Assembly (NCBI GenBank): GCA_016650295.1
Contig: JAENWA010000057.1
Span: forward strand, 1-35,794
Length of the DNA: 35,794 bases
Direction: 5' to 3'
From: Desulfuromonadales bacterium
GTDB lineage: Bacteria; Desulfobacterota; Desulfuromonadia; Geobacterales; Pseudopelobacteraceae
Positions 7,344 to 27,272 of this stretch are shown piece by piece. The translations under genes were made by a program, and so were the position numbers. The notes beneath the pieces are model-generated. The model did no database searches. It was not told where the DNA came from and was given only the letters and a program-made list of their open reading frames with translations. Numbering within the stretch: position 1 is the stretch's first letter; each line of letters begins with the position of its first letter.

Positions 7344-10300
7344 TTATGTAGCGTTGTTTACCGCCAGAAGGGTAACGATGGCAGTCGTCCCACAACCGGC
7401 AGACGATTCGAAGCGGATTGTTCCCTTATGTTCCTTGATGATAGAATCCGATATGTAGAGACCCAAACCGGTGCCGCCCTCAGCCATCTTGGTCGTGAAA
7501 AAAGGCTCCCTTAGCCGGGCCATAACGGTCTGGTCCATGCCGCAACCTTCATCCCTGACCGTAATAGTGATAGTTCCTGCTTCCATGCTGTCGGCTGTCG
7601 CGATATGAACCCCCGCCTGCTTGTCGGGGAGGGACTGCAGTGCGTTCATGATCAGGTTGATGATAACCTGCTCTATCTGCTGACTGTTACCACGGGCCTG
7701 GAGGAGCGGCTCTTGCAAGTTCATTTCAAAAATATCGGTATAGATGTGAATATGGTGCCAGAGAATCGAGGCGGCATTTTGAATCAAGCGATTGACGTCG
7801 ATTACTTCCTGTAAACTGCTTTTGTCCTCCCGCACGAAGTCTCTCATATTGTTGACAATGGTGGTGATCCGGCTCGATCCCTCCGAAATGCCTTTCAGAA
7901 GTCTTGGAGCAAGTCCCCTCATCTTTGAGAACGGAATGCCCCGGAGTGTGAAGTCGCCATGCTCCGAGCGAATCTGCTCCAGCAATGGCTCGGCGTCCTG
8001 CCAGACATCTACGAGCATGGCGGCGTTGATGGATATGCAGTTGTTGGGGTTGTTTATTTCATGGGCGACACTGGATGCGAGCATACCGATGGAGGTCATC
8101 TTGTTAGTGTGGATCAGCTTCGCCTGGGTATCTCTGACCTCTTCCTCCAACCGTACCTTCTCGGTGATGTCCCTGATGGAGCAATGAATAACGTACTCCT
8201 CGCGAAGGCGCAGAATTTTGCAGCGGATTGCGATCGTAATCGAGGCGCCGTTCCTGCGTATGCCGTGAGCCCGGTCAAGTTGGAAGACCTTGCTCAGGTC
8301 ACTCAGCGTAATGGTATCAACCAGATCGGAGAAATCTTCCCTGTTTATCATCTCAAAGGGATTCAGGGCCAGCATCCCGGCGCGATCGTAGCCGAACAGT
8401 TCCAGTGCCGCCGGATTGGCGTCGATGATCTCGAAATTGTCCATCCGGATCAGGAGGATGGCATCGCTGTTCTGGACGAATAGCTGGTGAAAACGCTCTT
8501 CACTCTCCCGTAATGCATCTTCGGTGCACTTTCGATCATGAATGTCTCTGGCGATACCTGTGGTGCCCAACAACTCGCCATTTTCGTCAAACATCGGCAT
8601 TTTGATGGTTTCACTCCATCTCCTGCTGCCGTTCCTGTCGACAATCTGCTCTATCATACGCTTCTGGGTGGCTGAGACCATGACCGATTTATCGTCTTCC
8701 CGGTATTTGCTGGCCAGATCCTCGGGCCAGACGTCGCGATCCGTCTTGCCTATCAGCTGTTCTGGAGTCAGGTTGCAGGCATCGGCATAGGCCGTGTTAA
8801 CTGTTATGAACCGGCTGTCGCGATCCTTGAGCCAGATCAGGTCGGGAATGATGTCGAGGATCGCCTGCTGCCGCAGTTGGATTTCTCGAAGCGCTTCCAC
8901 GGCCCGTTTGCGTTCGATAGCGATGCTGGCCAGATGGGCCGCGCGTTCGACCAGGAGCAGTTCCGCAGAATCCGGCTTGCGGGACTCAGGATAGTAGACT
9001 GCGAATGTCCCCATGTTCGCCCCGTTGGTTGACCGTATCGGCATTGACCAGCAGGCCCGCAGCCCGAAGCTCAGGGGGAGTTTCCGGTATTTTGCCCAGT
9101 GGGGGTCGGTGGCGATGTCTGCGGTAACAACCAGTTGGTTCGTGAACGCGGCACTGCCACAGGCCCCGATGTTCAGGCCGATCCGGGTGCCGTCTATTGC
9201 CTTGGCGTAACTTTCCGGAAGGCTTGGGGCAGCCCCATGCCGAAGGTGTATGCCGTCATCGTCAAGCAGCAGAACGGCACAGAGGGCATTCGGCGAGAAC
9301 CTCTCGACATTCTTGCACAGAATCTCGAGCACTTCTGAAAGTGACGCCTCCCGCACAATCATCTCCAGGACCAGCTTTTCGCCGGACATCAGATGTTCAG
9401 TCCGTTTCTGCTCGGTTATATCGAGGATCACCCCGACCAACCCGTTTATCTCGCCCGCCGTGTCGGTAAAGGTAGCCTTATTGAAGATGACGTCGTGGCG
9501 GCCGCCGTCGGCATAAACCACCGAGGATTCGTACACCTGGACTCCCGGACCGGTAAACAGCGCCTCATCCATTTCGAAGTATCGGTCAGCCAGGTTCGGC
9601 GGGGCCAGATCGTACACCGTCTTTCCCACCACCTCCCCCCGCTTCCGCCCCAGATAATTTTCAAAGGCGACATTACAGCCGATGTAGCGACCGCCCCGGT
9701 CTTTGTAAAAAATGGGATTCGGGATCGTGTCAATCAAGGTCTGAAGGAAGGTCAACTGGCTCTGGAGGCTCACATCGAGCTCCTTGTGCCGGGTAATGTC
9801 GAGGAACGAAATGATACTTCGGTTGCTGCCGGGGAAAAGGTTCACGTGAACAAGAATGTTGCGCAGCGAACCATCGCGATGTAACATTTCGCACTCATAG
9901 GTATGCGGGGCCGATGCCGGATCAATGCGGCGATTCCGGTGGTAGGCAAGCATCTGATCCCGGCTTTCCGGGGTGACGAATGCCGTCCAGCTTAATTGGC
10001 CCTCCACTTCCTCACGCGTATAGCCGAGAAGTTTTGTGAATTCATGGTTGATCAGCGAAACAGTGGTGTCGTCTTCGCTCACGAAAATGGCGGTTCCCGT
10101 GGTATCAAAGAGGGTCCGGTACTGCTCTTCGGAGGCCCGGAGAGCTTCCTGTGCCAGAGTCAAGTCGGTGATGTCGTAGTGCTGGATAAAATAGCCAACC
10201 ACCCTCTTACCTTCAGCCAGGTGGGGGATGTACGCGGTTTGCAGGGTCACGGAGCTGCCGTCGTTACGAAGTAATTCATGGGTGAAAATTATCTCCGTTC

Positions 10301-11243
10301 CCGTCAAGACCTTTCGGATGTTGTCTTCCCTGGAAGAAAAATACCCGTCTCCTACCACCTCTTTTGCGCTTCTGCCGGCCAGTTCTTCTCCAGCTACCCC
10401 GAACAGCTCTTCGTAGCGCCTGTTGGCAAAAAGGAAGCGCATATTCGTGTCTATATAGGCGATACTGACCGGCACTGAGTCGGTGATGAGCCTGATCCGG
10501 TCCGCCATATTGCGCACTTCTTCCTCCGCCTTAACCCGTTCACGGAGCAGCCCCCACGCAATGGCAATCAACAGAATTTCCAGGATGGTGGCACCTGCGA
10601 TAACATTATATCTCTGGCGGGAGTAACTCTGAAAAAATTCTCCCTGCTTGACGCCGACATACATGACTCCAATGATCCTGCCACTGCGGTCACGAATCGG
10701 GTCATACGCAGTGAAATAGGGGATGCCGAGAATAGCCGCTTCACCACGGTACGGGCGTTTTTCCTTGAAGATAGCGTCGTAGGCGGGACCGGAGAGTTTG
10801 GTGCCGACTGCCCGGCTACCGTCCTCCTTGAGCACGTTGGTTGATATCCGCGTGTCATCCATGAAGATGGTCGCCGTGCCGCCAAATATCGCCTTGATCT
10901 TGTCGGGCAGTTCGTAATTTCCGTTGATCACATAATTGCCCGCCATCATTCGGCCGTCAACGATGCGGAAGTCGTCACCCTTTGCAAGGAGGAGTTGCCA
11001 GAAAGTCCGGATAGCCTGTTCCTGCCCACTGGTTACCAGTTGCAGCGCCTCGGAATGCATCTGGGCGAGGAAAAACAGGGTGCTTAAAAGGACAGCGGAA
11101 GTAACGATGAAACAGCTGATGAGGAACAGGTTGAGTCTGGATTTCAATGGGATTCTCCCGGATATGGTATGCGGCGTATCGAAAAAAGAGGGGGAAATCA
11201 TGTTGTCGTGTGGTGGCCGGGGTCGAGCTTTAATGAAAATCAT
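7344..11243 (-). CDS. Multi-PAS/GAF sensor histidine kinase with Cache domain
   Basis: The 1299-residue protein has TM1 (about 36-61), a periplasmic single-Cache region (65-210), TM2 (213-233), three PAS domains (250-358, 370-485, 495-612), a GAF domain (625-778), two more PAS domains (790-903, 910-1028), a HisKA dimer domain with His1061 in SSVAHEINNPNN, and an ATPase domain with N box (INLIMNALQ), DEGCGMD and GGTGLGLYIS. It would autophosphorylate on His1061 and pass phosphate to a separate response regulator, most likely the divergent NtrC-type gene at 11425. The start is unsure: an ATG at 11201 would remove 14 residues, and neither start has a good ribosome site. The ligand is unknown. 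Confidence 0.93.
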   Translation of the reverse strand: MIFIKARPRPPHDNMISPSFFDTPHTISGRIPLKSRLNLFLISCFIVTSAVLLSTLFFLAQMHSEALQLVTSGQEQAIRTFWQLLLAKGDDFRIVDGRMMAGNYVINGNYELPDKIKAIFGGTATIFMDDTRISTNVLKEDGSRAVGTKLSGPAYDAIFKEKRPYRGEAAILGIPYFTAYDPIRDRSGRIIGVMYVGVKQGEFFQSYSRQRYNVIAGATILEILLIAIAWGLLRERVKAEEEVRNMADRIRLITDSVPVSIAYIDTNMRFLFANRRYEELFGVAGEELAGRSAKEVVGDGYFSSREDNIRKVLTGTEIIFTHELLRNDGSSVTLQTAYIPHLAEGKRVVGYFIQHYDITDLTLAQEALRASEEQYRTLFDTTGTAIFVSEDDTTVSLINHEFTKLLGYTREEVEGQLSWTAFVTPESRDQMLAYHRNRRIDPASAPHTYECEMLHRDGSLRNILVHVNLFPGSNRSIISFLDITRHKELDVSLQSQLTFLQTLIDTIPNPIFYKDRGGRYIGCNVAFENYLGRKRGEVVGKTVYDLAPPNLADRYFEMDEALFTGPGVQVYESSVVYADGGRHDVIFNKATFTDTAGEINGLVGVILDITEQKRTEHLMSGEKLVLEMIVREASLSEVLEILCKNVERFSPNALCAVLLLDDDGIHLRHGAAPSLPESYAKAIDGTRIGLNIGACGSAAFTNQLVVTADIATDPHWAKYRKLPLSFGLRACWSMPIRSTNGANMGTFAVYYPESRKPDSAELLLVERAAHLASIAIERKRAVEALREIQLRQQAILDIIPDLIWLKDRDSRFITVNTAYADACNLTPEQLIGKTDRDVWPEDLASKYREDDKSVMVSATQKRMIEQIVDRNGSRRWSETIKMPMFDENGELLGTTGIARDIHDRKCTEDALRESEERFHQLFVQNSDAILLIRMDNFEIIDANPAALELFGYDRAGMLALNPFEMINREDFSDLVDTITLSDLSKVFQLDRAHGIRRNGASITIAIRCKILRLREEYVIHCSIRDITEKVRLEEEVRDTQAKLIHTNKMTSIGMLASSVAHEINNPNNCISINAAMLVDVWQDAEPLLEQIRSEHGDFTLRGIPFSKMRGLAPRLLKGISEGSSRITTIVNNMRDFVREDKSSLQEVIDVNRLIQNAASILWHHIHIYTDIFEMNLQEPLLQARGNSQQIEQVIINLIMNALQSLPDKQAGVHIATADSMEAGTITITVRDEGCGMDQTVMARLREPFFTTKMAEGGTGLGLYISDSIIKEHKGTIRFESSAGCGTTAIVTLLAVNNAT

Positions 11244-13143: not shown

Positions 13144-14292
13144 ATGGCTAGTCGTAGAATCGGCAGCGTCATGGTGGTTGACGATGATCCCTTATTGCTG
13201 GATTCGGTTACGCTGCTTCTCGGCAGTCACGGCTTTACCGTTTCCGGATATACGGACGGACACAGGGCGCTGGCGGCATTCCGGGAAGACCCGGCCGATG
13301 TAGTGCTTACTGACGTAAACATGCCGGTCATAAACGGCTTCCGCCTTCTGGAGAAAATCCGCACCTTCGATACGGAAACACCGGTCATTTTCATCACCGG
13401 GAATGCCGAGTTTGATGTGGCGCTATCGGCAATCAAGCTGCAGGTCTTCGAGTTCATTGTCAAACCATTTTCCGGCCCAAGACTGATCGACACCGTCGAA
13501 CGAGGCATTTCCCGCAAACGTTTGCTTCAGGCGGAAAAAAAAGCCAGGGCCGAGCTGGAGACCATGGTTACCCGGGGCAACAAAGAGTTAGCCTCTGCGC
13601 TTAAGAGCCAGAAGCTTATGAACAGGGAAATCATCGAGCGCCTTACCATAGCAGCCGAGATGCGTGACGAGGATACCGGCATGCACATCGGCCGGATCGG
13701 TCTTTATGCAGGTGTGATCGCGCAGGCGCTTGGCAAGTCCGATGATTTCGTCGACGCCATCACCTGGGCAAGTGCCATGCACGATGTCGGCAAGATCGGT
13801 ATTCCCGATGCCATCCTGTTCAAGCCGGGCAGCTTCACTCCCGAGGAGTTTGAAATTATCAAGACACATACCGTTATCGGCGGCCACATCCTGCATGGGG
13901 CATCCCACCCTCTCTTGCAGATGGCTGCGACCATCGCCCTCACGCACCATGAAAGATGGGATGGTACGGGCTACCCGAAGGGGTTGCAGGGAGAGGAGAT
14001 TCCTCTGGAGGGGAGGATTGTCATGCTGGCGGACCACTATGACGCGTTGCGCAGTCAGAGGGTCTACAAAACATCTCTTGATCATAAGACATCCTGGCGG
14101 ATTATTGTCGAGGGTGGCGGGCAGACACAACCTGCGCACTTTGACCCGCAGGTCCTCCGAGCCTTCATTGAAACAAGCGATAAATTTTCCGCGATCTACG
14201 ATTCAACCCATAAAAATTCCCTGCAGGATATCGCCGGCTTCAAACGGATAAAGAAGATCATTCATGATGCAACGTTCTGCCCAGCCAACTGA
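13144..14292 (+). CDS. Response regulator with HD-GYP c-di-GMP phosphodiesterase domain
   Basis: The 382-residue protein has a receiver domain (Asp57 in VVLTDVNMP), a helical linker (about 125-170) and an HD-GYP domain with AMHDVGKIGIPD, THTVIGG, LTHHERWDGTGYPKG and ADHYDALRSQR. Such RpfG-like proteins hydrolyse cyclic di-GMP when their receiver is phosphorylated. I chose the ATG with AAGGAGGTGTAC directly upstream, and an upstream in-frame ATG is less likely. It is the first gene of the signalling cluster, and its 3' end overlaps the next gene. It may link the chemosensory pathway to c-di-GMP level, which is inference. Confidence 0.94.
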   Translation: MASRRIGSVMVVDDDPLLLDSVTLLLGSHGFTVSGYTDGHRALAAFREDPADVVLTDVNMPVINGFRLLEKIRTFDTETPVIFITGNAEFDVALSAIKLQVFEFIVKPFSGPRLIDTVERGISRKRLLQAEKKARAELETMVTRGNKELASALKSQKLMNREIIERLTIAAEMRDEDTGMHIGRIGLYAGVIAQALGKSDDFVDAITWASAMHDVGKIGIPDAILFKPGSFTPEEFEIIKTHTVIGGHILHGASHPLLQMAATIALTHHERWDGTGYPKGLQGEEIPLEGRIVMLADHYDALRSQRVYKTSLDHKTSWRIIVEGGGQTQPAHFDPQVLRAFIETSDKFSAIYDSTHKNSLQDIAGFKRIKKIIHDATFCPAN

Positions 14293-16150
14293 TCATTGCA
14301 GCGAAGGCATGCCTGCCTTGCGTCTTGTGCCCGCGGCCGCAGGGGTCGGCGAGCAGCAACCGCCTTCCCGCCGACCTGCCGGACACCTCCAGGCTGCGCT
14401 CCTGGAACGGCTGGACGGACTGGTCAGTGAACTCGACAAACTTCCGGATCTGACTGAAAAGAGTTTTCTGACGGTCTCTGCCAACCTGCAAGGCCTTTGC
14501 GGCCGCTTGCAAAGTATTTCGAAAAACGCCGGCCAGGCCGCTCTGCTCATGTCGGGCCACGACGCGCTCTGCGTCATCGAAGGCCTGGGGCATGCTCTCG
14601 GTTGCATGGAGGATCTGCTTGGCGCTACAAGCCTGATCGTCGACCGGTCGATCACCGGCCTCTGCCGGATCATTGACGAACTCGAAGATGTCCAGCAGCT
14701 GGTGACGGATTTCAAGGAGCGGGCACGCACCCTGCGCATGCTGCAGATGATCACCAATATCCAGGGGGCCAGTCTGACGAAAGGGACGACCGGATTTCAA
14801 AAGGTTGCCGACGATATCGGCACCCTCTCCATTACCGTGCAGGCAAAAACAGCCTGCATGACCCAGAAAACACAAGCGCTTTCCGCCGAGTTGCAAAAAG
14901 CGGTTACGATGGTGTCGGCTCTGCAAGACAGCCAGAGAAAGCTGACCAGCCGAATCATCGGCGATATCAGGCACGCCATCGTCACCCTGGCTGGAATGCA
15001 CGAAAAAAGCGCCCTGGCAGCGGAGCAGCTGGCGGAAAGCTCGGAGACAATGTCCCATGAACTGAGCGAGGTGGTGATGGCGATGCAATTTCACGACATC
15101 ACTCGCCAGCAGCTGGAGCATACCCGCCAGGCGCTCATCGATGCACGCGTGAAACTCATAACATCACCAGGTAAAGAAACGACACAGGAAATATCCGCTT
15201 TCTCACCGGAAAGTGTCTGCGCCCTCCAGGCGGCACAGATTGCCAACAGCATCAACGAACTGAAAAATGCTATTACCCGGATCGGTACAAACCTCGGGGT
15301 ACTTGCCGGGGACGCGGCGACAACTTCCCGCAATATCCACAGCCTCTTCGGAATGGCCGGGATTGTCGGACAGACATCCATTGCCGAAATTGAAACCGGT
15401 TTGGCTTCGGTGTTGACGGCCTTTGCCGAAAGCAGGACGGTGATCGGGCATCTGGCCATGAACATGCAGACCGTCACGGTCGCCATGGGAGAGGTCACCT
15501 CCTTTGCCGAGAATATCGATTTTATCGGCTCGGAAATAAAACTGATCGCCTTGAATGCCATTATCAAGGCTGTCCAGGCAGGCAAGGACGGCTCCGCATT
15601 CGTCGTAATCGCCACGACAGTGAAACAGGAGTCTGAGGAGATTTGCCGGCAGGCAAGCGCCATCTCCGCTTCAATCGGCAGGATCACCGACCACGTGAAC
15701 AGCTTGCAGGCTGAACTGCCGACCGTGCAGAGTGCCACACCGGAAGGTCAGGAGGCACTGGGCGACATGTCGGGCGCTCTAACCACCCTGAGAAGACTCT
15801 CCGAAAACGTCATGGGGCTACTGGCACAGACGGACAGGATGGCAACCGGCCTGGCTACGGACATTGAGGAAACGATTACCTGTCTGGATAACCGGGAGAT
15901 GAAAACGCTACTTCAGCAGGAGATACCTACCCGTCTGAACCGGCTGGTGATGGCGGTGCGGAGAATCGACCAAGTGAGTCCGGACGGCGTTGGCGGTAAT
16001 GCTCTGGAGATGTTCCACAACCAGTACACTATGCGGAGCGAACGGAAGGTCCATGAGCTATTTGCGGCGGAGACCTTTGCCGGCCATGATTTTTCAACGG
16101 TCATCCCGCTGGCGGATGATGATTTAGGGGACAATGTCGAGTTATTCTGA
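14264..16150 (+). CDS. Degenerate MCP-like cytoplasmic protein with a CheZ-like motif
   Basis: The 628-residue protein is almost wholly helical and has no membrane segment. Residues about 418-461 (FIGSEIKLIALNAIIKAVQA onward, then GKDGSAFVVIATTVK) resemble the hairpin tip of methyl-accepting proteins, but key residues of the usual [18 protein letters not shown] core are changed. At 274-286 there is MQFHDITRQQLEH, whose Asp278 and Gln282 match the D-x-x-x-Q active-site spacing of CheZ phosphatase. It could scaffold CheA/CheW, or dephosphorylate CheY, or both. The gene overlaps the HD-GYP gene by 29 bp. A later ATG at 14309 is possible. A STAS gene follows 16 bp downstream. Confidence 0.75.
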   Translation: MMQRSAQPTDHCSEGMPALRLVPAAAGVGEQQPPSRRPAGHLQAALLERLDGLVSELDKLPDLTEKSFLTVSANLQGLCGRLQSISKNAGQAALLMSGHDALCVIEGLGHALGCMEDLLGATSLIVDRSITGLCRIIDELEDVQQLVTDFKERARTLRMLQMITNIQGASLTKGTTGFQKVADDIGTLSITVQAKTACMTQKTQALSAELQKAVTMVSALQDSQRKLTSRIIGDIRHAIVTLAGMHEKSALAAEQLAESSETMSHELSEVVMAMQFHDITRQQLEHTRQALIDARVKLITSPGKETTQEISAFSPESVCALQAAQIANSINELKNAITRIGTNLGVLAGDAATTSRNIHSLFGMAGIVGQTSIAEIETGLASVLTAFAESRTVIGHLAMNMQTVTVAMGEVTSFAENIDFIGSEIKLIALNAIIKAVQAGKDGSAFVVIATTVKQESEEICRQASAISASIGRITDHVNSLQAELPTVQSATPEGQEALGDMSGALTTLRRLSENVMGLLAQTDRMATGLATDIEETITCLDNREMKTLLQQEIPTRLNRLVMAVRRIDQVSPDGVGGNALEMFHNQYTMRSERKVHELFAAETFAGHDFSTVIPLADDDLGDNVELF

Positions 16151-16166
16151 AAGGAGAAGGTAATCG

Positions 16167-16526
16167 ATGGAACTCATGATGTCGTCAAATGATACTGCTG
16201 TTGATCCGGCTGCACAGACGGTGCGGCTCTCGGGAAAAGCAACCGTGGCAGGGGCGGTTGATCTGAAGAGGGTTCTCGTGGAAGCACTCGACTCAGCAGA
16301 CGAGGTTATTCTTGATGTCAGCGGGATTACTACCTGTGATCCGTCTTTCTTTCAGCTCCTGTGTGCCGCCCACCAGTCGTCGGCGGTACTGGGAAAGATG
16401 TTGGGGGTTGGCCCCGATGGCCTCGGCGGGCTGCGGAACCTGGCGAAACTATCCGGATGTTATCCTGCATCCGGCTGTGGCCGGGTACAAGGCGGCTGTC
16501 TGCTACAAAAGGAGGAAGATAAATGA
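16167..16526 (+). CDS. STAS-domain protein
   Basis: The 119-residue protein has a STAS fold: a beta strand with TVRLSGKATVAGAVDLKRVL, then EVILDVSGITTCDPSFFQLLCAAH, where Asp-Pro-Ser lies at the position of the phosphorylatable serine of anti-sigma-factor antagonists. The C-terminal part is rich in Gly and Cys. Stand-alone STAS proteins occur next to CheA genes in related bacteria and may take part in the chemosensory array. Start support is AAGGAGAAGGTAATCG. Its stop overlaps the cheY start as ATGA, so translation is probably coupled. Confidence 0.8.
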   Translation: MELMMSSNDTAVDPAAQTVRLSGKATVAGAVDLKRVLVEALDSADEVILDVSGITTCDPSFFQLLCAAHQSSAVLGKMLGVGPDGLGGLRNLAKLSGCYPASGCGRVQGGCLLQKEEDK

Positions 16527-16888
16527 ACAGGACCATATTGACCGTTGACGATTCAGCAAGTATCCGCATGATGGTTTCTTTCACCTTGATGGATAAGGGC
16601 TATCGGGTGATTGAAGCGACGGACGGCTTCGACGGCATCGCCAAACTCCGGGATCAGTCGATAGACATGGTCATCACCGACCTGAACATGCCGAAAATGG
16701 ACGGCATCAGTCTGGTACGAGAGATTCGCCAAAACCCGGGCTTCCGTTTTACCCCGATTATCATGTTGACGACCGAGTCGCAGGATGATCGCAAGGTTGA
16801 GGCCCGGGCCGCGGGCGCAACCGGATGGATCACCAAGCCGTTCCGGCCCGATCAACTGTTGGCCGTGGTAAGGAAGGTCCTCGGATGA
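16523..16888 (+). CDS. cheY: CheY-type single-domain response regulator
   Basis: The 121-residue receiver has Asp9, Asp10, phosphoacceptor Asp53 (MVITDLNMP), Thr83/Thr84 (MLTTES) and Lys105 (WITKPF). It is a stand-alone receiver that CheA should phosphorylate. It has no output domain, so it may act on the flagellar motor or another target. It overlaps the STAS gene by 4 bp and cheA by 4 bp. Confidence 0.95.
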   Translation: MNRTILTVDDSASIRMMVSFTLMDKGYRVIEATDGFDGIAKLRDQSIDMVITDLNMPKMDGISLVREIRQNPGFRFTPIIMLTTESQDDRKVEARAAGATGWITKPFRPDQLLAVVRKVLG

Positions 16889-18897
16889 TGGAACATTTCC
16901 GGCAGACATTCCGGGAGGAGGCGGATGAACTTCTTGTCGAACTGGAACACTCCCTGCTCGAACTGGAGCAAAACCCTGCCGATGATGAGCTGATAGATCG
17001 AGTATTCCGAGCCATGCACACCCTCAAAGGCTCCAGCTCCATGTTCGGTTTTGACGACATTGCCGCCTTCAGCCACGAGGTGGAAACGGTCCTCGACCTG
17101 GTCCGCGACGGCAAGACCGGGGTGACAAAAGAATTGATCAGACTGACTCTCCTGGCCCGCGATCAGATAAAGGCCATGATCAAGGTCTCCGTCGACAATG
17201 GTGAGCTTGACGTAGAACGGACAGAAGAACTCGTTGCCGCCTTCCACAAACTTGTCGGCACGGCATTACCTGTCCTCGTGCCAGCGGGCCTCTCTTCATC
17301 TGCTTCCAGCCAGCCGGGAGATAGCGGCCTGGAAATAGTGTACGCCATACGTTTCCGCCCTGATCGAGATATCTTCAAGCGGGGTCTCAACCCTGTGCAC
17401 CTCCTCAATGACCTGCACGAATTGGGGCTCTGCCGGATCACGGCCAAGACGAACGATATTCCTCCCCTGGCTGATCTCGACCCGGAACTCTGCTACCTGC
17501 AATGGGATATTATGCTTACGACCACGCACGGAGTGGACGCCATCCGTGACATCTTCATGTTTGTCGGCGAAGAAAGCAGTGTTGAAATCGAGGTCATTCC
17601 CAGAGAGAGCGGGGAGGAAGCTCGAAAGATCCGGCCGGAATTGCCGTGCCAGGCTGCCGGATCAGGCAAGCCGCGGACAAAGGCTATAAAGGCTATCTCC
17701 AGTATCAGGGTTGCCGCCGAAAAACTCGATCACCTCGTGAACCTGGTCGGTGAATTGGTAACTGCTCAGGCGCGTCTCAGCCAGACCGCCCTGGCCCACA
17801 ATGATACCGGGCTCATTGCTCTGGCCGAAGAAATCGAACGGCTCACCGAAGGATTGCGCGACACTGCCCTCAATGTCCGCATGCTGCCCATTGGCGGCAC
17901 CTTCGGCAGGATGAGACGTCTGGTCCACGACCTGTCCAGCGAACTCGGCAAGGATGTCGAGCTGATCACCGAGGGAGCGGAGACGGAGTTGGATAAGGCC
18001 GTCATAGAACGGCTTGCCGACCCTCTGGTGCATCTGATCAGAAACAGCATCGATCACGGCATAGAAAAGTCAACGGTTCGTATGGCCGCCGGCAAACCGC
18101 CGTGCGGCACCATTCGACTCACGGCCGCCTATTCCGGGGCCAGTGTGCTGCTAACCCTCAGTGACGATGGTGCCGGAATCGACCGGGAAGCGGTGCATGC
18201 CAGGGGAGTGAAAATGGGGCTGATTTCGGCTGGAACGGAGTTGCCGGACAGGGATCTCCTGAATCTGATCTTTGCCCCCGGGTTTTCCACGTCTGCAAAA
18301 ATCACCAATATCTCCGGACGCGGTGTCGGCATGGACGTGGTCAAAAGAGGTGTCGAGGCGCTGCGCGGCGCCATCAGCATCACCAGCACTCGCGGAGAAG
18401 GAGCCACGGTATCCTTCAGGATTCCCCTTACACTGGCGATCATCGAGAGCCTGCTCGTGCAGATCGGCACCACCAACTTCGTCGTGCCGCTGTCTCTGGT
18501 AGAGGAATGCATTGAACTGACCAGAACGGATGTTGCGCAGGCGCATGGCCGCCGGCTTGTCGATGTTCGTGGAGCAATTATCCCCTATATTTCACTCCGG
18601 GAGAGGTTCGGCATCGGCGGAATCCAGCCGGAAATCGAACAGATCGTCGTTGTCGAGGTGGATGGTAAGCGGATCGGTCTCGTGGTCGACCATGTGATCG
18701 GCGGACACCAGACCGTAATAAAATCTCTCGGGCGCTTATTTCGCGAGGCTCAGGGAATTTCCGGCGCCACCATGCTGGGGGACGGTACTGTAGCGCTGAT
18801 ACTGGATGTGCCGCAACTGGTAGGCGATGAAGAAGTTTTGGAAAGGCGAACCTTTGGTAACGCACCATTCACGGAGAAGGGGACAATGCATGCATGA
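16885..18897 (+). CDS. cheA: Chemotaxis histidine kinase CheA
   Basis: The 670-residue protein has an N-terminal HPt domain with His45 in MHTLKGSSSMFGF, an intermediate region (about 145-260) in the position of the CheY-binding P2 domain, a dimerisation domain (LDHLVNLVGELVTAQARLSQ), a kinase domain with VHLIRNSIDHGIE, DDGAGID and GRGVGMDVVK, and a C-terminal CheW-like domain (about 520-650). It controls phosphorylation of CheY and CheB. I chose the ATG that overlaps the cheY stop as ATGA, with AAGGAAGG upstream, because an upstream frame start would lie inside cheY. The cheW start overlaps the end of this gene. Confidence 0.96.
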   Translation: MMEHFRQTFREEADELLVELEHSLLELEQNPADDELIDRVFRAMHTLKGSSSMFGFDDIAAFSHEVETVLDLVRDGKTGVTKELIRLTLLARDQIKAMIKVSVDNGELDVERTEELVAAFHKLVGTALPVLVPAGLSSSASSQPGDSGLEIVYAIRFRPDRDIFKRGLNPVHLLNDLHELGLCRITAKTNDIPPLADLDPELCYLQWDIMLTTTHGVDAIRDIFMFVGEESSVEIEVIPRESGEEARKIRPELPCQAAGSGKPRTKAIKAISSIRVAAEKLDHLVNLVGELVTAQARLSQTALAHNDTGLIALAEEIERLTEGLRDTALNVRMLPIGGTFGRMRRLVHDLSSELGKDVELITEGAETELDKAVIERLADPLVHLIRNSIDHGIEKSTVRMAAGKPPCGTIRLTAAYSGASVLLTLSDDGAGIDREAVHARGVKMGLISAGTELPDRDLLNLIFAPGFSTSAKITNISGRGVGMDVVKRGVEALRGAISITSTRGEGATVSFRIPLTLAIIESLLVQIGTTNFVVPLSLVEECIELTRTDVAQAHGRRLVDVRGAIIPYISLRERFGIGGIQPEIEQIVVVEVDGKRIGLVVDHVIGGHQTVIKSLGRLFREAQGISGATMLGDGTVALILDVPQLVGDEEVLERRTFGNAPFTEKGTMHA

Positions 18898-19393
18898 AGT
18901 GACAACAGCGGAAACAACACAGTATCTGACATTTACCCTTGAGGAGGAGGTCTTTGCCATCGATATCGGCAAGGTACGGGAGGTCCTCGACTATACCGCG
19001 GTGACCAGGGTGCCCCAAACCCCCGAATTCATGCGCGGAGTTATCAACCTGCGCGGCAATGTGGTGCCGGTGATGGATATGCGACAAAAGTTCGGCATGT
19101 CGGCGACGGAAAAGAGGGTCAATACGTGCATCATCATTATGGAGGTCATGGTTGACGATGAGGTCACGATAATCGGCTCCCTGGCCGATTCGGTCCGGGA
19201 AGTTCTTGACCTGGAACCTGGTCAGATCGAACCGGCACCCCGCATTGGCACACGGCTGAACGTCGATTTCATACAAGGGATGGGGAAGCACGAAAACGGA
19301 TTTGTCATGATACTTGATATCGACAAAATCTTTTGCGACGACGAACTGGCTACCTATGGGACGGATGATGTCATGAACCAGCTCCAGGGATGA
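18890..19393 (+). CDS. cheW: Chemotaxis coupling protein CheW
   Basis: This 167-residue CheW domain has [43 protein letters not shown] and [10 protein letters not shown] blocks. It links CheA to receptors in the chemosensory array. The chosen ATG overlaps the cheA end by 8 bp and has GGAGAAGGGG upstream. A longer frame start inside cheA is rejected because the extra N-terminal residues do not match the family. Confidence 0.95.
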
Positions 19394-19448
19394 ACGACGA
19401 ACGAAAGAAACAGGCCTTGCAAAATCATATCAAAAGGAGAACAGCAAC

Positions 19449-21149
19449 ATGAAATTTAATAATATGAAGATAGGGGTGCGGCTCGGCTTGGGATTCGGGG
19501 CGGTGCTCTTGCTCCTGGTGGCGATTACCATGATGTCAGTCAGTAGTTTAAGCAAGGTCAATGACAATATGGAAAAGATCGTGCAGCTGAATTATGCCAA
19601 GATCAAACTGGCCAGTGATGCCCAGAAAACGCTCAGGAAAGTAGTCGGTGACATAAAGAGCATGCTCATCGTTGAGCCGGGCGCCCTGAAAGATTTGAAA
19701 GCGGAGATCGAGCTGAACCGTGCGATGTACCGGGAGGCCATCGGTAAACTGGAGAAACTGGAATCCTCTGAAAAGGGGAAAGAGCTCTTGAGCCAGATCA
19801 ATACCAACATCGCCAATGCCAAAGAAGCCGACCTGAGGGTTGAAGAACTCAGCTTTGCCGGCAAGACGGCCGAGGCTACGAACGTGTACAACAAGGAAGC
19901 AGACCATCTCATCGAGAAAATTTTCGTTCCTTTTGCAGAACTGGTCAAATACCAGGAAGACCAGATGGCCACAAGCTATGGCGAGGCCGCAAAACTGTAC
20001 CGTACGGCCCGGATCATGACCATTGCGATAGCAGGCTTAGCCCTGCTCTTCGGGGCAATCATCAGCTTCCTTATCACCCGGAGCATCACCAACCCGTTGC
20101 GGGAAGCGGTCAAGGTCTCCAACCGGCTGGCCGCTGGCGACCTGTCGGTATCCGTCGTTTCTTCCAGCCGGGACGAGGCAGGGATGCTCCTGGTAGCCAT
20201 GCAGAACATGATGGAGAAGTTGAGAGAGATCGTTGGCGAGGTAAAGAGCGCCGCCGAAAACGTGGCCGCCGGAAGCCAGGAGCTCTCGTCCAGCTCCGAG
20301 GAGATGTCCCAGGGCGCAAGTGAGCAGGCGGCCGCGGCTGAGGAGGCATCTGCCTCCATGGAGCAGATGACCTCCAATATCCGGCAGAATGCCGATAACG
20401 CCCTGCAGACTGAAAAAATCGCCGTGAAGTCAGCTGCGGCAGCCCTTGAAGGTGGCAAGGCGGTGGTCGAGACCGTAACAGCCATGAAGGAAATTGCCAA
20501 AAAGATCTCCATGATCGAAGAGATCGCCCGTCAAACTAACCTCCTGGCGCTCAATGCCGCCATCGAGGCCGCCAGGGCCGGTGAACACGGCAAAGGCTTC
20601 GCGGTGGTCGCCAGCGAAGTTCGCAAGCTGGCTGAGCGGAGCCAGAAAGCAGCAGCAGAAATCAGCAGCCTGTCGGCCTCCAGTGTCGATGTCGCGGAGA
20701 AAGCAGGCCATCTCCTCAGCTTGATGGTGCCCGATATCCAGAAGACCGCCGAGCTGGTGCAGGAGATCAACGCTGCCAGCCGTGAGCAGGATTTGGGGGC
20801 CGAACAGATCAACAAGGCAATCCAGCAACTCGACCAGGTCATCCAGCAGAACGCATCGGCATCGGAGGAGATGGCTTCCACCTCCGAAGAGCTCTCCTCT
20901 CAAGCTGAACAGCTATCGAATACTGTTGCCTTTTTCCGGCTGGACGAGAAAGAAAGCAGAAACCTTGCTGTTGCGGCCCGCCATCAGCCTTCATCATCAA
21001 GTAATCTGCGTAAATCGATCAACCGCAATACACATGCATCTGCACAAAACAAGAAACTGCATCTCGTGACTGCACCGCTTTCGGCCGGAATAGATCTGGA
21101 CATGGGGGTAGGAGCAGACAAGCTTGATGCCGCGTTCGAGAAATTCTGA
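19449..21149 (+). CDS. Methyl-accepting chemotaxis protein
   Basis: The 566-residue protein has TM1 (about 11-31), a four-helix-bundle-type periplasmic domain (about 32-185), TM2 (about 190-210), a HAMP linker and a cytoplasmic signalling hairpin whose tip reads [20 protein letters not shown] followed by [16 protein letters not shown]. The helices on each side carry Gln/Glu-rich methylation regions such as [20 protein letters not shown]. It should feed signals to the CheA/CheW pair encoded just before. The C-terminus ends EKF and lacks a clear CheR-binding pentapeptide. Start support is AAAAGGAGAACAGCAAC. The ligand is not known. Confidence 0.95.
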
Positions 21150-21187
21150 GCGGTGCCGCATCAATCAATCCGACGAGGAGAACAACA

Positions 21188-22060
21188 GTGCCGAAGATGA
21201 ACGATGAAGAACTGATTGCTGCCCTGCTGGAGAGGTTTGATGCAAACCGGAGGGCTATCAACGACCTTCAGGAACTTACCGAAAAACTGGAAGCAACCAA
21301 TCGTCGACTACAGGACTCGGAAGCCCTCAAGGGGCATTTTCTCTCCAACATCCGCAATGAGATCAACAACCCACTGGCGGCGATCATGGGTTTCGCTTAC
21401 CAGTTGATGGGCGGTGACTGCAGTGCCGAGCAGACGGCCAATAATGGCCGCATGATTTACGATGAAGCATTCGAGCTGCACTTTCAGCTGGAAAATGTTT
21501 TTGCCGCGGCCGGGCTTGAGGCGGGACAGGAAACTCCCGCACCGGAACATATCGATGTTGCGGCAATTCTTATCGAGGTTCTTGAAAGGCTTGAGCATCG
21601 CTGCTCCGAAAAGGAGATCGAACTTCGGCACGGCATTTTCGATTCCGTACCGTTCATTGGCGACCCGAGATTCATGCAGATCATACTCAGGAACCTGGTC
21701 GCAAATGCCCTGGAGTTCAGTCCGAAGGGTGGAATCGTTACCATCGCTCTCTGTACCGATGATTCCATGCTGCGGATTGCCATCCGCGATCATGGACCCG
21801 GCATAGATTCAATCAACCATGACAGGGTGTTTGATCGCTTTTGGCAATTGGATTGGGGGAGATCCAAGAGCCACCGGGGCCTCGGACTCGGACTGAGCAT
21901 CTGCAGGGCCCTTGCCGAACTTTCAGGAGGTACGATCTGTGTCGAGAGTACCATCGGTGCCGGGTGCATGTTTACCTTGAACATTCCCCTGCCGATCGGC
22001 GAAGCCGCAACGGTGGCCCCGGAATGGAATCAGCTCTCCGATACGGTCGAGCGGTACTGA
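21188..22060 (+). CDS. Histidine-kinase-like protein lacking the phosphoacceptor His
   Basis: The 290-residue protein has a short N-terminal coiled coil and then a HisKA-like helix, FLSNIRNEINNPLAAIMGFA. The usual SHELRTPL or AHEINNPL histidine is Asn57 here, encoded by AAT at 21356-21358. The ATPase domain is intact, with N box RNLVANALEFSP, G1 IRDHGPGID and G2 GLGLGLSI. It may bind ATP without autophosphorylating, or act as an allosteric partner, so it should not be called an active kinase from sequence. No transmembrane or sensor domain is seen. The GTG start has GAGGAGAACAACA upstream. It lies between the MCP and cheD. Confidence 0.85.
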   Translation: MPKMNDEELIAALLERFDANRRAINDLQELTEKLEATNRRLQDSEALKGHFLSNIRNEINNPLAAIMGFAYQLMGGDCSAEQTANNGRMIYDEAFELHFQLENVFAAAGLEAGQETPAPEHIDVAAILIEVLERLEHRCSEKEIELRHGIFDSVPFIGDPRFMQIILRNLVANALEFSPKGGIVTIALCTDDSMLRIAIRDHGPGIDSINHDRVFDRFWQLDWGRSKSHRGLGLGLSICRALAELSGGTICVESTIGAGCMFTLNIPLPIGEAATVAPEWNQLSDTVERY

Positions 22061-22104
22061 ATGCCTGTTCAATCGGTGGAGACGGCAAGGAATAGCTACA
22101 AACC

Positions 22105-22620
22105 ATGAGTGAACATTTTCTCTATCCGGGGATGTTATTTGCCGAACAGGAGACTCATCGGGTTACGACCGTTCTCGGTTCGTGCATTGCCGTCTGCCTT
22201 TACGACCCGATCCGGCGCATCGGCGGAATCAATCACTACATGCTGCCCTTGTGGAACGGGGAGGGGCTCCCCACCCCCCGTTACGGAAATGTTGCCATTA
22301 TTGCACTTATCGAGCGGCTCCAAAAATTCGGTTGTCTCACCACCCGCATGCAGGCAAAGCTCTTCGGCGGAGCGGCCATGTGGGACAATGGCAACAGTTT
22401 CGTTTCAGTCGGCGAACGCAATATCAATCAGGCTTGGCTGATGCTTGAACGTTACGAAATACCGGTCGTGGCCCAGGACCTTGGCGGTAGCGCCAGTCGG
22501 AAAATCATTTTTTATAGCGAGACTGGAGAGGTCCTTCTCCGCCGGCAGCACAGCACCTTTCAGTCCGAACGGCGGTCGGGCGATGAGATCGCTGTATCCG
22601 GTCAATTGGTCGCAAGGTGA
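22105..22620 (+). CDS. cheD: Chemoreceptor glutamine deamidase CheD
   Basis: The 171-residue protein has the CheD catalytic residues Cys27 (VLGSCIAVCLYD), His44 (GGINHYMLP) and Thr21. It deamidates glutamines in MCPs so that CheR can methylate them. In some species it also works with CheC, which is not encoded here. Length fits the family. The ribosome site is weak (AAGGAATAG somewhat far upstream). Confidence 0.94.
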   Translation: MSEHFLYPGMLFAEQETHRVTTVLGSCIAVCLYDPIRRIGGINHYMLPLWNGEGLPTPRYGNVAIIALIERLQKFGCLTTRMQAKLFGGAAMWDNGNSFVSVGERNINQAWLMLERYEIPVVAQDLGGSASRKIIFYSETGEVLLRRQHSTFQSERRSGDEIAVSGQLVAR

Positions 22621-22708
22621 CGTAGTGTCATTATGAACGTTTCAGAAATCCGGCGCGACATCCGAGGCTCCTTAATGTAGAAGCAGATATCGAATGAGGA
22701 TGTACTAC

Positions 22709-23074
22709 ATGGCAAAAACCATACTGGTTGTTGAGGATTCATCAAGTATCCGTCAACTGCTGAGCTCCACACTTACGCGGTTCGGGTATACGGTTGTGGA
22801 AGCCGTTGACGGACTGGACGGCTTGGTTAAACTGGAAGACCTTGCAGTTGACCTGATTATTACCGATTTACATATGCCCAGTCTTGATGGCATCGGGCTC
22901 ATTCACGGGGTTCGCGATAATGCCGCATACCGTTTTGTTCCGATTATCATCCTGACAACCGAAAATCAGAATGCCATAAAACATGAAGCGGTGACCGCAG
23001 GCGCCAGCGCCTGGGTCACCAAGCCGTTCAAGCCGGCGGAAATTCTGGACGTCATCCGCAAGGTCATGCACTAA
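22709..23074 (+). CDS. cheY: CheY-type single-domain response regulator (second)
   Basis: This 121-residue receiver has Glu-Asp-Ser-Ser at the N-terminus (VVEDSSSIRQLL), phosphoacceptor Asp in LIITDLHMPSLDG, ILTTEN and VTKPFKP. It parallels the receiver at 16523 and shares its general layout, which suggests an old gene duplication. I prefer the start with GAGGAT upstream, and another ATG 15 bp earlier is possible. The stop overlaps the cheR start as TAATG. It may compete for phosphate from CheA. Confidence 0.92.
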   Translation: MAKTILVVEDSSSIRQLLSSTLTRFGYTVVEAVDGLDGLVKLEDLAVDLIITDLHMPSLDGIGLIHGVRDNAAYRFVPIIILTTENQNAIKHEAVTAGASAWVTKPFKPAEILDVIRKVMH

Positions 23075-23955
23075 TGCTGGCTGAGGCGAAAAGTAAGCAG
23101 AGTGTGCTTGTTGATAAAAGCTGCCGCCTGACAGATGGCGATTTTTTACGACTGGGCCGCTATATTTACGATGCGTGCGGCATCAGGATGCCCATCAGCA
23201 AAAAAACGATGCTTGAATCACGTCTTCAGAAAAGACTGCGCTCTCTGGGTTGCGATACCTTCTCCCAGTACTGCACCTATCTCTTCAGTGCCGAAGGTAG
23301 GGATCTGGAAACTGTCCGAATGATCGACCTGGTGACAACCAACAAAACGGATTTTTTCCGAGAGGCCGATCATTTCGCCTACCTGAGGGAGACGATCCTT
23401 CCGCAATGGCTACGAAGTCAACCGAACGGGAACCCGCGAAGTTTCCGGGTCTGGAGCGCGGGATGTTCCACCGGCGAGGAGCCCTATACGCTGGCCATGG
23501 TCCTTCAGGATTTTGCCGAGCATTGCCCCGGCTTTGATTTTCAGATCCTGGCCACTGACATCTCTACCCGGGTCCTGGAAACGGCCCGGCTTGCGATTTA
23601 TCCGGAAGAGCGTACCGGCCCTGTTTCCATTAACCACAAGAAAAAATATCTGTTGCGGAGCAAGGATCGGAAAGAAGGGCTCGTGCGGGTCACTCCCGAG
23701 CTCAGAAATAAAGTACAGTTCCGCTGGTTGAATTTCATGGCTGATAATTTCGGTCTTCAGGATAAATTTGACATTATTTTTTGTCGAAATGTCATCATTT
23801 ACTTTGATCGGCCAACCCAGGAAGGCCTCCTGAGTCGCTTTTGCGGGCATCTCTCAACTTGCGGGCACCTTTTTCTCGGCCATTCCGAGACCCTGAGCGG
23901 CCAGGGTCTCCCGCTGAGGGCCGTTTATCCCACCGTCTACAGGAACCATTGCTGA
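23074..23955 (+). CDS. cheR: Chemoreceptor methyltransferase CheR
   Basis: The 293-residue protein has an N-terminal helical CheR domain and a C-terminal S-adenosylmethionine fold with [30 protein letters not shown] and [13 protein letters not shown]. It methylates glutamates on MCPs during adaptation. The ATG overlaps the stop of cheY by one base, so translation is likely coupled. Length is normal for the family. Confidence 0.96.
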
Positions 23956-24004
23956 TGTCATCTTCTGCAGGGTCACACATGGTTCATTGCTCTACGCTGA
24001 GTCG

Positions 24005-25075
24005 ATGAGAAAGAAGATCCGGGTTCTCATCGTTGATGATTCCGCTTTGGTGCGTCAGGTCCTGGCAGAGATTGTCGCCTCGGATCCGGAGCTTGAAGTA
24101 CTGGCCACCGCTGCTGATCCGTTCATTGCAGCCGAACGGATGAGGACGGAGGTGCCCGACGTCATCACCCTGGACGTGGAAATGCCTCGAATGGACGGAA
24201 TCTCGTTTCTGCAGCGGATTATGAGTCAGCACCCGATACCGGTGGTGATGTGCTCAAGTCTGACCGAAAAGGGCTCGGAATCGGCATTGACGGCTCTGGA
24301 ATATGGCGCCGTTTCTATAATCGAAAAACCACGCCTTGGCTCTCGTCAGTTTTTTGAAGAATCAGCATTGCAGATCTGCGACGCGATCAAGGCTGCCAGC
24401 AATGTGCGTCCCCGTCAGATAACAACCCAGAAGCGTGAGATTCAGCCAAAACTGACAGCCGATGCGATCATGGCTAAACCCAGATCAATGTCGATGGTAA
24501 GGACTACAGAAAAGGTGGTTGTAGTGGGGGCCTCCACCGGGGGTACGGAGGCGTTGCGCATCTTTCTGGAGTCCCTTCCGCCCGATAGCCCCGGTATCGT
24601 AATTGTCCAGCATATGCCGGAGGGATTTACAAAGGCCTTTGCCCAGAGGTTAGACAAACTCTGCCGGATATCCGTCAAGGAAGCGACGACTAACGACAGC
24701 ATCATTCCGGGTCGTGCCCTTATTGCACCTGGCAACAGGCACACCATTCTGAAACGGAGCGGCGCACGCTACTATGTGGAGGTGCAGGACGGGCCGCTTG
24801 TCTGCCGACATCGTCCGTCAGTCGACGTGCTCTTTCGCTCCGCGGCGAGGTACGCAGGAAATAATGCGGTGGGAGTCATCATGACCGGCATGGGGGATGA
24901 CGGCGCTCGTGGAATGCTTGAGATGAAGGAGACCGGTGCCCTGACCATCGCCCAGGATGAAGCCACGTCGGTGATTTTTGGGATGCCGCATGAGGCGATC
25001 AAGCTTGGCGCGGTGGACCGTGTTCTGCCTCTCCAGGCGATTGCCGGCGAAGTGGCAAAAGCCTGCTTCTTATAA
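24005..25075 (+). CDS. cheB: Chemotaxis response regulator methylesterase CheB
   Basis: The 356-residue protein has a receiver domain with Asp57 ([13 protein letters not shown]) and a methylesterase domain with the Ser ([11 protein letters not shown]), His (VQHMPEGF) and Asp ([11 protein letters not shown]) catalytic residues. It removes methyl groups from MCPs when phosphorylated by CheA. An in-frame TTG 18 bp upstream is an alternative start, and neither has a strong ribosome site. It is the last gene of the cluster. A small TGGTTGA/TCAACCA hairpin at 25099-25115 follows but lacks a T run. Confidence 0.95.
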
Positions 25076-26464: not shown

Positions 26465-26971
26465 TCATCCCTCCACCATCTCCCTGGTGATCCGTGCCAT
26501 CGGCGCATAAAACCCGGCGGCAATCATCTGCTTCAATACAGCATTGGCTTTTCTGAGATCAATGACGCCATTCCGCACGGCCTTGATGAGAATACCAACC
26601 GTTCCGGTCAGCGGTATCCCCAGACGCACCGCTTCGCTTCGCGCCAGTCGGTCGTCACAGGCGAATACATACCCGCGTCGGGCGGCAAGTGCCAGGCATG
26701 ATGATTCACCATCGCCAAGCGAAACAGATATCCTCGCATACAACCGCCGCTCGGCCGGGGTTGACAGGTCGTCCTGTCGCGGCCAGCCGTCCGATAAGAG
26801 CTGAACCAGCGGTTCAAGACCAGTATGCCCCTGCCGAAAACCGCGAAGAACCTCCGCAACGACAAAGCCGGAACAAAAGGCGTTAGCGGGATAGATCCTC
26901 CGCAGCAACTCCAGCTGACCGACTTTTGCGAAATTGCTGATTACCATGGTATCAAAAATCACATCAGGCAT
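26465..26971 (-). CDS. PIN-domain toxin-like nuclease (DUF3368 type)
   Basis: The 168-residue protein has the PIN acidic residues: Asp in VIFDTMVISNFA, Glu in VVAEVLRGF, Glu in LGDGESSCLALA and Asp in YVFACDDRLAR. Such proteins are RNA-cleaving toxins of type II toxin-antitoxin systems. I chose the ATG that overlaps the stop of the upstream antitoxin gene by 8 bp. Slightly longer starts are possible. The antitoxin-then-toxin order with overlap is typical. Confidence 0.85.
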   Translation of the reverse strand: MPDVIFDTMVISNFAKVGQLELLRRIYPANAFCSGFVVAEVLRGFRQGHTGLEPLVQLLSDGWPRQDDLSTPAERRLYARISVSLGDGESSCLALAARRGYVFACDDRLARSEAVRLGIPLTGTVGILIKAVRNGVIDLRKANAVLKQMIAAGFYAPMARITREMVEG

Positions 26972-27272
26972 TAGCGGCATCTGCCATGATTTCGTCCACA
27001 CCTTGAACCATCTGCTGAATGCCTCGCTCCTTCAGATAGCTCCGCGCGGTAAGCGGATCGATCCCCAGGGATTGCGCCAGCTTGCCCAGGCTGATGAAAC
27101 CCTCACGGTAAGCGGCAAGCGCAACCTGGTGGCGGCGCTCCACCGTATCCACCGTAATTGTGCTGTCAATGGCATCCCGTACCAGTTCCCCCAACGTGCG
27201 ATGCATGGAAGTTGCCATCTGCTTCAAGGTGATATGTTGATAGGGGGTCAACATGACGTTAGTTCTGATCAT
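26964..27272 (-). CDS. Antitoxin with two DNA-binding segments
   Basis: The 102-residue protein starts with a ribbon-helix-helix-like segment (NVMLTPYQHITLKQMA, then RTLGELVRDAI) and continues with a UPF0175-like helix-turn-helix (YREGFISLGKLAQSLGID, then ARSYL). It is the probable antitoxin and autorepressor for the PIN toxin, which overlaps its 3' end. CGAGGTGCCAA precedes the ATG. A good sigma-70 promoter lies just upstream. The ORF is short but well placed. Confidence 0.8.
   Translation of the reverse strand: MIRTNVMLTPYQHITLKQMATSMHRTLGELVRDAIDSTITVDTVERRHQVALAAYREGFISLGKLAQSLGIDPLTARSYLKERGIQQMVQGVDEIMADAANA

Follow-up and report, generated by a model that had tools for sequence, protein, structure and literature searches.

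A 290-residue relative of the histidine kinases, encoded in a che operon of a Desulfuromonadales bacterium, carries asparagine at the phosphoacceptor position, and so do all the orthologues that we compared (61/61), each of them encoded next to cheD. By its sequence, from which we infer its function, this protein (psHK) would be a pseudo-histidine kinase in which the substitution is unusually exact and widespread. Probably the kinase has become a regulator in the course of evolution and is not a broken enzyme.

psHK and its operon

The psHK gene lies in a 35,794-nt contig that was analysed over its whole length (the window) and forms an open frame of 290 codons without an internal stop (Table 1). 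The start codon is GTG, with gaggag located 7 bases upstream; an alternative ATG is found 9 bases in, at 21197, and the aligned orthologues mostly start near residue 4. Pfam recognizes the HATPase_c domain (E = 5.8e-26), and the HisKA match, at 26.0 bits, falls slightly below the cut-off of 26.9. Residues 51–63 read FLSNIRNEINNPL, with Asn57 aligned to the phosphoacceptor His of solved kinases. The ATP-box residues N169 and N173, D201, G203, and G205, and G231, G233, and G235 are present; we take these sets to be the N-box, G1, and G2, respectively. Alignment and Pfam confirm the original prediction that Asn57 stands in place of His and that the ATP-binding boxes are intact. The single base change from CAT to AAT that had been offered as an explanation holds for the codon but not for the motif: the best-scoring kinases usually read S-H-E-L-R-T-P, and psHK deviates also at R56, N60, and N61, which argues for an old, rebuilt motif.

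No Pfam sensor domain was detected in psHK, in which ~45 residues precede the HisKA-like region, and its Pfam matches with E values up to 1 include neither CheC nor CheX. A single-sequence structure model reached a mean pLDDT of 53.4, with the first 40 residues modelled as helix with fair confidence and the remainder poorly.

Table 1. Features of psHK and of the surrounding operon, in coordinates of the window.
Feature	Coordinates	Strand	Basis or remark
Receiver-HD domain protein (HD-GYP type), upstream of operon	13144..14292	+	Pfam
MCP-signal protein, 628 aa	14264..16150	+	Pfam MCPsignal 1.4e-9
STAS-domain protein	16167..16526	+	among compared loci, in source and two nearest relatives only
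cheY1	16523..16888	+	similarity and reading
cheA	16885..18897	+	H-kinase_dim at 17698-17871
cheW	18890..19393	+	named by reading
mcp, membrane chemoreceptor	19449..21149	+	named by reading
psHK, histidine-less HisKA/HATPase_c protein, 290 aa	21188..22060	+	ORF, Pfam
Asn57 codon AAT, phosphoacceptor position	21356..21358	+	sequence, orthologue alignment
Glu58, +1 acidic residue	21359..21361	+	kept in 61/61 orthologues
Asn61, +4 Thr/Asn position	21368..21370	+	Asn 59/61, Asp 2/61
HATPase_c domain with N-box, G1, G2 (residues 158-269)	21659..21994	+	Pfam
cheD	22105..22620	+	Pfam CheD 7.5e-26; adjoins psHK in 61/61 loci
cheY2	22709..23074	+	Pfam Response_reg 5.7e-25
cheR	23074..23955	+	named by reading
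cheB, TTG start as listed, ATG at 24005	23987..25075	+	named by reading

The genes follow one another as receiver-HD, MCP-like, STAS, cheY1, cheA, cheW, mcp, psHK, cheD, cheY2, cheR, cheB. This whole 12-gene order (13144–25075) is common to two genomes of another family (loci L086, L087); the nearest psHK relatives, G101 and G102, share the full gene order at 40–82% identity per protein. Source psHK groups with the proteins of G101 and G102, which belong to another family, with a support of 100, and three other genomes of the source genus yielded no psHK; transfer of the whole operon into the source lineage is therefore likely. In the source lineage the STAS protein upstream of cheY1 might serve a GHKL ATPase as partner. 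A general STAS/anti-sigma-like partnership was rejected, as STAS occurs only in the source, L086, and L087 among 63 loci. Farther downstream, at 26465–27272 on the minus strand, UPF0175 and DUF3368 genes overlap by 38 bases, an arrangement that resembles a toxin-antitoxin pair.

The source genome (99.1% complete) returned no match for CheC, CheX, CheZ, or FliM; it has six matches to the CheA domain H-kinase_dim, five of them above the cut-off. The cell probably lacks flagella but possesses several chemosensory systems.

Conservation of the substitution

With a single sequence as query, 46 of 76 genomes of the family had a match at E ≤ 1e-45, and a 19-row alignment was then used to search the order (141 genomes) and a phylum sample (395 genomes). 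psHK is present in at least 51 of the 141 genomes of the order (18 candidates per genome scored) and in at least 15 of the 395 drawn across the phylum, 9 of them new (6 candidates per genome scored). Its absence was confirmed in G001, G002, G003, G082, and G083, for which all or nearly all candidates were scored. The family is well separated from other kinases, since in a comparison of 20 genomes no orthologue scored below 276 bits and none of the next kinases above 168. A search of a collection of genome contigs returned only one distant, His-bearing kinase, and a plasmid search returned no psHK. In the open-licence literature we found no published description of a histidine-less kinase family beside cheD, and the available portions of PMC8235581, PMC8396549, and PMC3944678 do not mention such a protein.

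The resulting set comprises 61 orthologues from 60 genomes of the phylum, including source psHK and two copies from G019, with pairwise identities of 32% to 97% (median 50%). Comparing the acceptor codon among relatives had been proposed as a check on the substitution: His was not seen at position 57 in any orthologue, and Asn is encoded by AAC in 36 and by AAT in 25. Glu58 and the N-box, G1, and G2 residues are likewise invariant (61/61), and Asn61, at position +4, is kept in 59, the remaining two having Asp. One orthologue (L085:8975-9742) has a His at residue 56, one before Asn57.

Ordinary kinases served as controls. Of 66 other matches in the source genome 47 were taken; 40 of these aligned at the acceptor position (7 did not), and all 40 have His there, as do 15/15 high-scoring non-orthologous kinases from other genomes. 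The same window encodes a 1299-aa kinase (7344–11243, minus strand) that reads HEINNP, with a normal His, versus NEINNP in psHK. We then placed 52 orthologues (of the 61, 9 with >85% identity were left out) and 57 kinases (62 less 5 that did not exceed 200 residues) in a tree built without the motif columns by a quick method, with no bootstrap and with many long kinase branches. In this tree all Asn proteins group in a single clade with an SH-aLRT of 100 and a branch length of 1.32. Of 49 pairs computed, the 20 closest have dN/dS values of 0.026 to 0.163; psHK is under purifying selection. The simplest reading of these sequences is a single, ancient fixation of Asn that has been maintained since. 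His and Asn codons are one base apart, which would favor decay, a recent mutation, or a sequencing error, but Asn in 61/61 orthologues with two codons, open frames, and low dN/dS rule these out and leave them virtually no probability. The view that psHK has a non-canonical role and is not decaying is thereby supported.

Pairing with cheD

In all 61 loci cheD starts 10–50 bp past the psHK stop codon on the same strand. Among genomes of the order, those with psHK all have a CheD of the psHK-linked subfamily at E ≤ 1e-32 (51/51), versus 2/90 of those without psHK. These two orphan CheD proteins (L136:9888-10364 and L137:8961-9392, in G082 and G083), which lack an upstream psHK, are probably natural psHK losses, and their genomes could reveal what psHK-linked CheD does alone. 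A supposed psHK-CheD fusion in G066 (a 556-aa open frame) was not borne out, the CheD frame there being about 163 aa.

Cys27 and His44 of CheD, presumably the catalytic pair, are kept in 63/63 proteins (61 psHK-adjacent and the two orphans). Position 21, which aligns with the catalytic Thr in the Thermotoga alignment, is Ser in 34, Thr in 27, and Val in 2 of the 63, and our claim is restricted to Cys and His. At the position of the CheC-binding pair (Met101-Phe102 in Bacillus, placed via the Thermotoga alignment), Met-Phe is found in 0/63 and Met-Trp in 3/63 (source, L086, L087). CheC-like docking of CheD was rejected on these counts; the lack of Met-Phe indicates that the CheC interface of CheD is not simply reused.

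At a distance of up to 10 kb from the pair, 42/61 loci have genes similar to source cheA, cheW, cheR, cheB, or mcp, 12 loci have none in flanks of at least 7 kb on each side, and in the remaining 7 the flanks are too short to judge. The conserved place inside the che operon on which the original prediction relied thus holds for the 42 loci but not for the 12; the constant neighbour is cheD. The suggestion of a CheA modulator is not supported as stated, on the same grounds, and a regulator of CheA only is excluded by the 12 loci in which the pair is away from core che genes. What is inherited as a unit appears to be the psHK-cheD pair and not the che operon. In 14/61 loci the ~1 kb preceding the pair contains a receiver-like stretch, a count that may include parts of larger proteins and leaves out receiver domains of neighbouring cheB (26 with those); no gene like source CheY adjoins the pair in the 12 lone loci. 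A cassette follows lone psHK-cheD in L073, L075, L079, L080, L082, and L096, six of the nine listed loci without core che genes: a 112–133-aa protein and then an HDOD-like protein, with a partial GGDEF protein after the latter in L080. The small protein has a VLARD motif, and the two examples examined gave no Pfam match.

Across the 141 genomes of the order, CheC is matched in 117 and CheX in 131 (126 above the cut-off); the CheC counts are upper bounds, as the CheC model is short and also picks up CheX loci. CheC is matched in 47 (again an upper bound) and CheX in 50 (two weakly) of the 51 genomes of the order that carry psHK, which does not support psHK as a general substitute for CheC/CheX. 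G101 and G102 have CheC matches, only weak CheX matches, and no FliM match. A FliM search in 17 chosen genomes, 14 of them with psHK, gave a match in 8 of the 14 and none in 6. The psHK-CheD pair suggests an adaptation component that is missing from current chemosensory models and independent of flagella.

Possible roles of psHK and comparison with known systems

We tentatively favor, somewhat short of calling it probable, a reading of these sequences in which psHK is a non-autophosphorylating kinase relative that binds or dephosphorylates a CheY-like phospho-receiver and works with CheD as CheC does. psHK, which has no sensor domain, should be unable to autophosphorylate because Asn replaces His throughout the clade. 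It would still bind ATP through its conserved boxes, and a CheY-like receiver may still dock on helix α1, where the phospho-receiver would be bound or dephosphorylated using the +4 Asn. The state of the receiver could then be passed from psHK to CheD, so that receptor adaptation would track the output level, a CheC-CheD-like logic on a kinase scaffold. The place of psHK beside cheD fits the known adaptation loop in which CheC mediates the control of CheD by CheY~P; binding is said to matter more than enzyme activity in this CheC-CheD-CheY~P loop in the available part of PMC3513319.

Loss of His with retention of the +4 Asn and the ATP site (N57 61/61, E58 61/61, Asn61 59/61, ATP boxes 61/61) fits a locked phosphatase or a phospho-receiver sensor. 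The NtrB/NRII variant H139N reportedly retains phosphatase activity. We also count for the receiver reading the single clade, the low dN/dS, the constant pairing with cheD, the 14/61 upstream receiver-like stretches, and a source genome without matches for CheC, CheX, CheZ, or FliM. In HisKA proteins the +1 acid serves kinase activity/autophosphorylation and the +4 Thr/Asn serves phosphatase activity, as described in the excerpt available of PMC3510030. According to the same excerpt, CrdS H371A keeps most phosphatase activity, with a receiver half-life of 2.6 min versus 53.5 min for the receiver alone and 0.7 min with wild type; the +4 variant N375A gives 47.6 min, i.e. no dephosphorylation; and the His of EnvZ enhances the reaction but is not required (PMC3510030). 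A pure phosphatase would not need the invariant E58, however, since CrdS and HK853 require the +1 acid solely for kinase activity, and Asp at +4, as in two orthologues, left CrdS without significant phosphatase activity (PMC3510030, in part). DivL, by alignment, keeps a +4 Thr, yet is no phosphatase in the accessible text of PMC4211667. The reading is further opposed by the counts of Met-Phe in CheD (0/63), by the presence of CheC and CheX matches in most psHK genomes of the order, and by the 12 lone loci without a CheY-like neighbour. Alternatively, the two CheY genes of the source operon could provide a phosphate sink.

In CheZ the attacking water is held by Gln, and in CheX by Asn. By analogy of position, Asn57 would sit where His would meet the receiver aspartyl phosphate, and its carboxamide might help to hold such a water, which would make psHK a dedicated CheY~P phosphatase with CheD as bound effector and would mean, jointly, that the CheC-CheD loop had been invented independently a second time, on a kinase scaffold; we consider this combination not very likely. 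The main rival to the phospho-receiver reading is a nucleotide-driven clamp on CheD: psHK would cycle between ATP-closed and open states and control CheD activity or release without a receiver, which is possible, if doubtful, and Asn57 and Glu58 might, with the same reserve, line the ATP-facing surface and themselves stay unphosphorylated. Invariant E58 and a full set of ATP-box residues without an acceptor are what a nucleotide switch would keep, and the 12 lone loci, in which the pair has neither core che genes in its vicinity nor a cheY-like neighbour, point the same way; by itself, however, a clamp leaves the +4 Asn in 59/61 unexplained. Any ATP-dependent role for psHK would fit the invariant ATP boxes.

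That psHK is a sensor like DivL, binding a phospho-receiver without dephosphorylating it and relaying its state by allostery, appears unlikely. DivL is the third-best PDB sequence match (the two better ones have His at the position) and binds and stabilises DivK~P with neither kinase nor phosphatase activity, but it binds ATP weakly, as far as the accessible text of PMC4211667 goes. In the alignment DivL also misses the first N-box Asn that psHK keeps in 61/61, and it has PAS domains where psHK has only about 45 residues ahead of HisKA. A kinase acting in trans, with psHK joined to an ordinary kinase or CheA and phosphorylating the His of that partner, would account for the ATP-box residues and for the kinase-specific E58 in 61/61. 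Such heterodimer complementation of H-to-N kinase subunits has reportedly been found in NtrB/NRII work. We regard it as quite improbable here, as the compared loci have no constant kinase partner gene in common, none adjoins the pair in the listed lone loci, and E58 would not sit next to the partner's histidine.

To our knowledge, the acceptor-less pseudo-histidine kinases described so far are mainly isolated examples, DivL among them; psHK represents an old and exact acceptor loss (Asn 61/61) across several families and classes of one phylum. The loss is tied to one neighbour gene, so that the role of a histidine kinase without histidine becomes testable with two small proteins. A described setting close to this one is that of the Geobacter Type 2 'E. 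coli-like' che clusters, which lack cheZ and contain, besides cheD, additional genes whose function is unknown or different (Tran, 2008; PMC2577667, in part); the source operon can be likened to them by described gene content only, and the available part of that survey describes neither the psHK protein nor its Asn.

DivL, the Caulobacter pseudo-histidine kinase (PDB 4q20), resembles psHK in its HisKA/HATPase_c sequence (alignment E = 2.3e-22), in the replacement of the acceptor His, and in its link to receiver signalling. The acceptor is Tyr in DivL and Asn in psHK, however; the N-box is degenerate in DivL, whereas N169 is kept in 61/61 psHK proteins; and DivL combines weak ATP binding with PAS domains, whereas psHK lies beside cheD. 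With the CheC-CheD pair of Bacillus and Thermotoga, psHK-CheD has in common that the protein encoded beside cheD could read CheY~P, with Cys27 and His44 of CheD kept, but psHK has no CheC Pfam match and the CheC-binding Met-Phe occurs in 0/63 CheD proteins. The transmitter phosphatases of the HisKA type, CrdS and EnvZ, have in common with psHK the +4 Asn, the +1 Glu, and the sequence of HisKA α1; the loss of His was engineered in these proteins, whereas in psHK it is natural and fixed.
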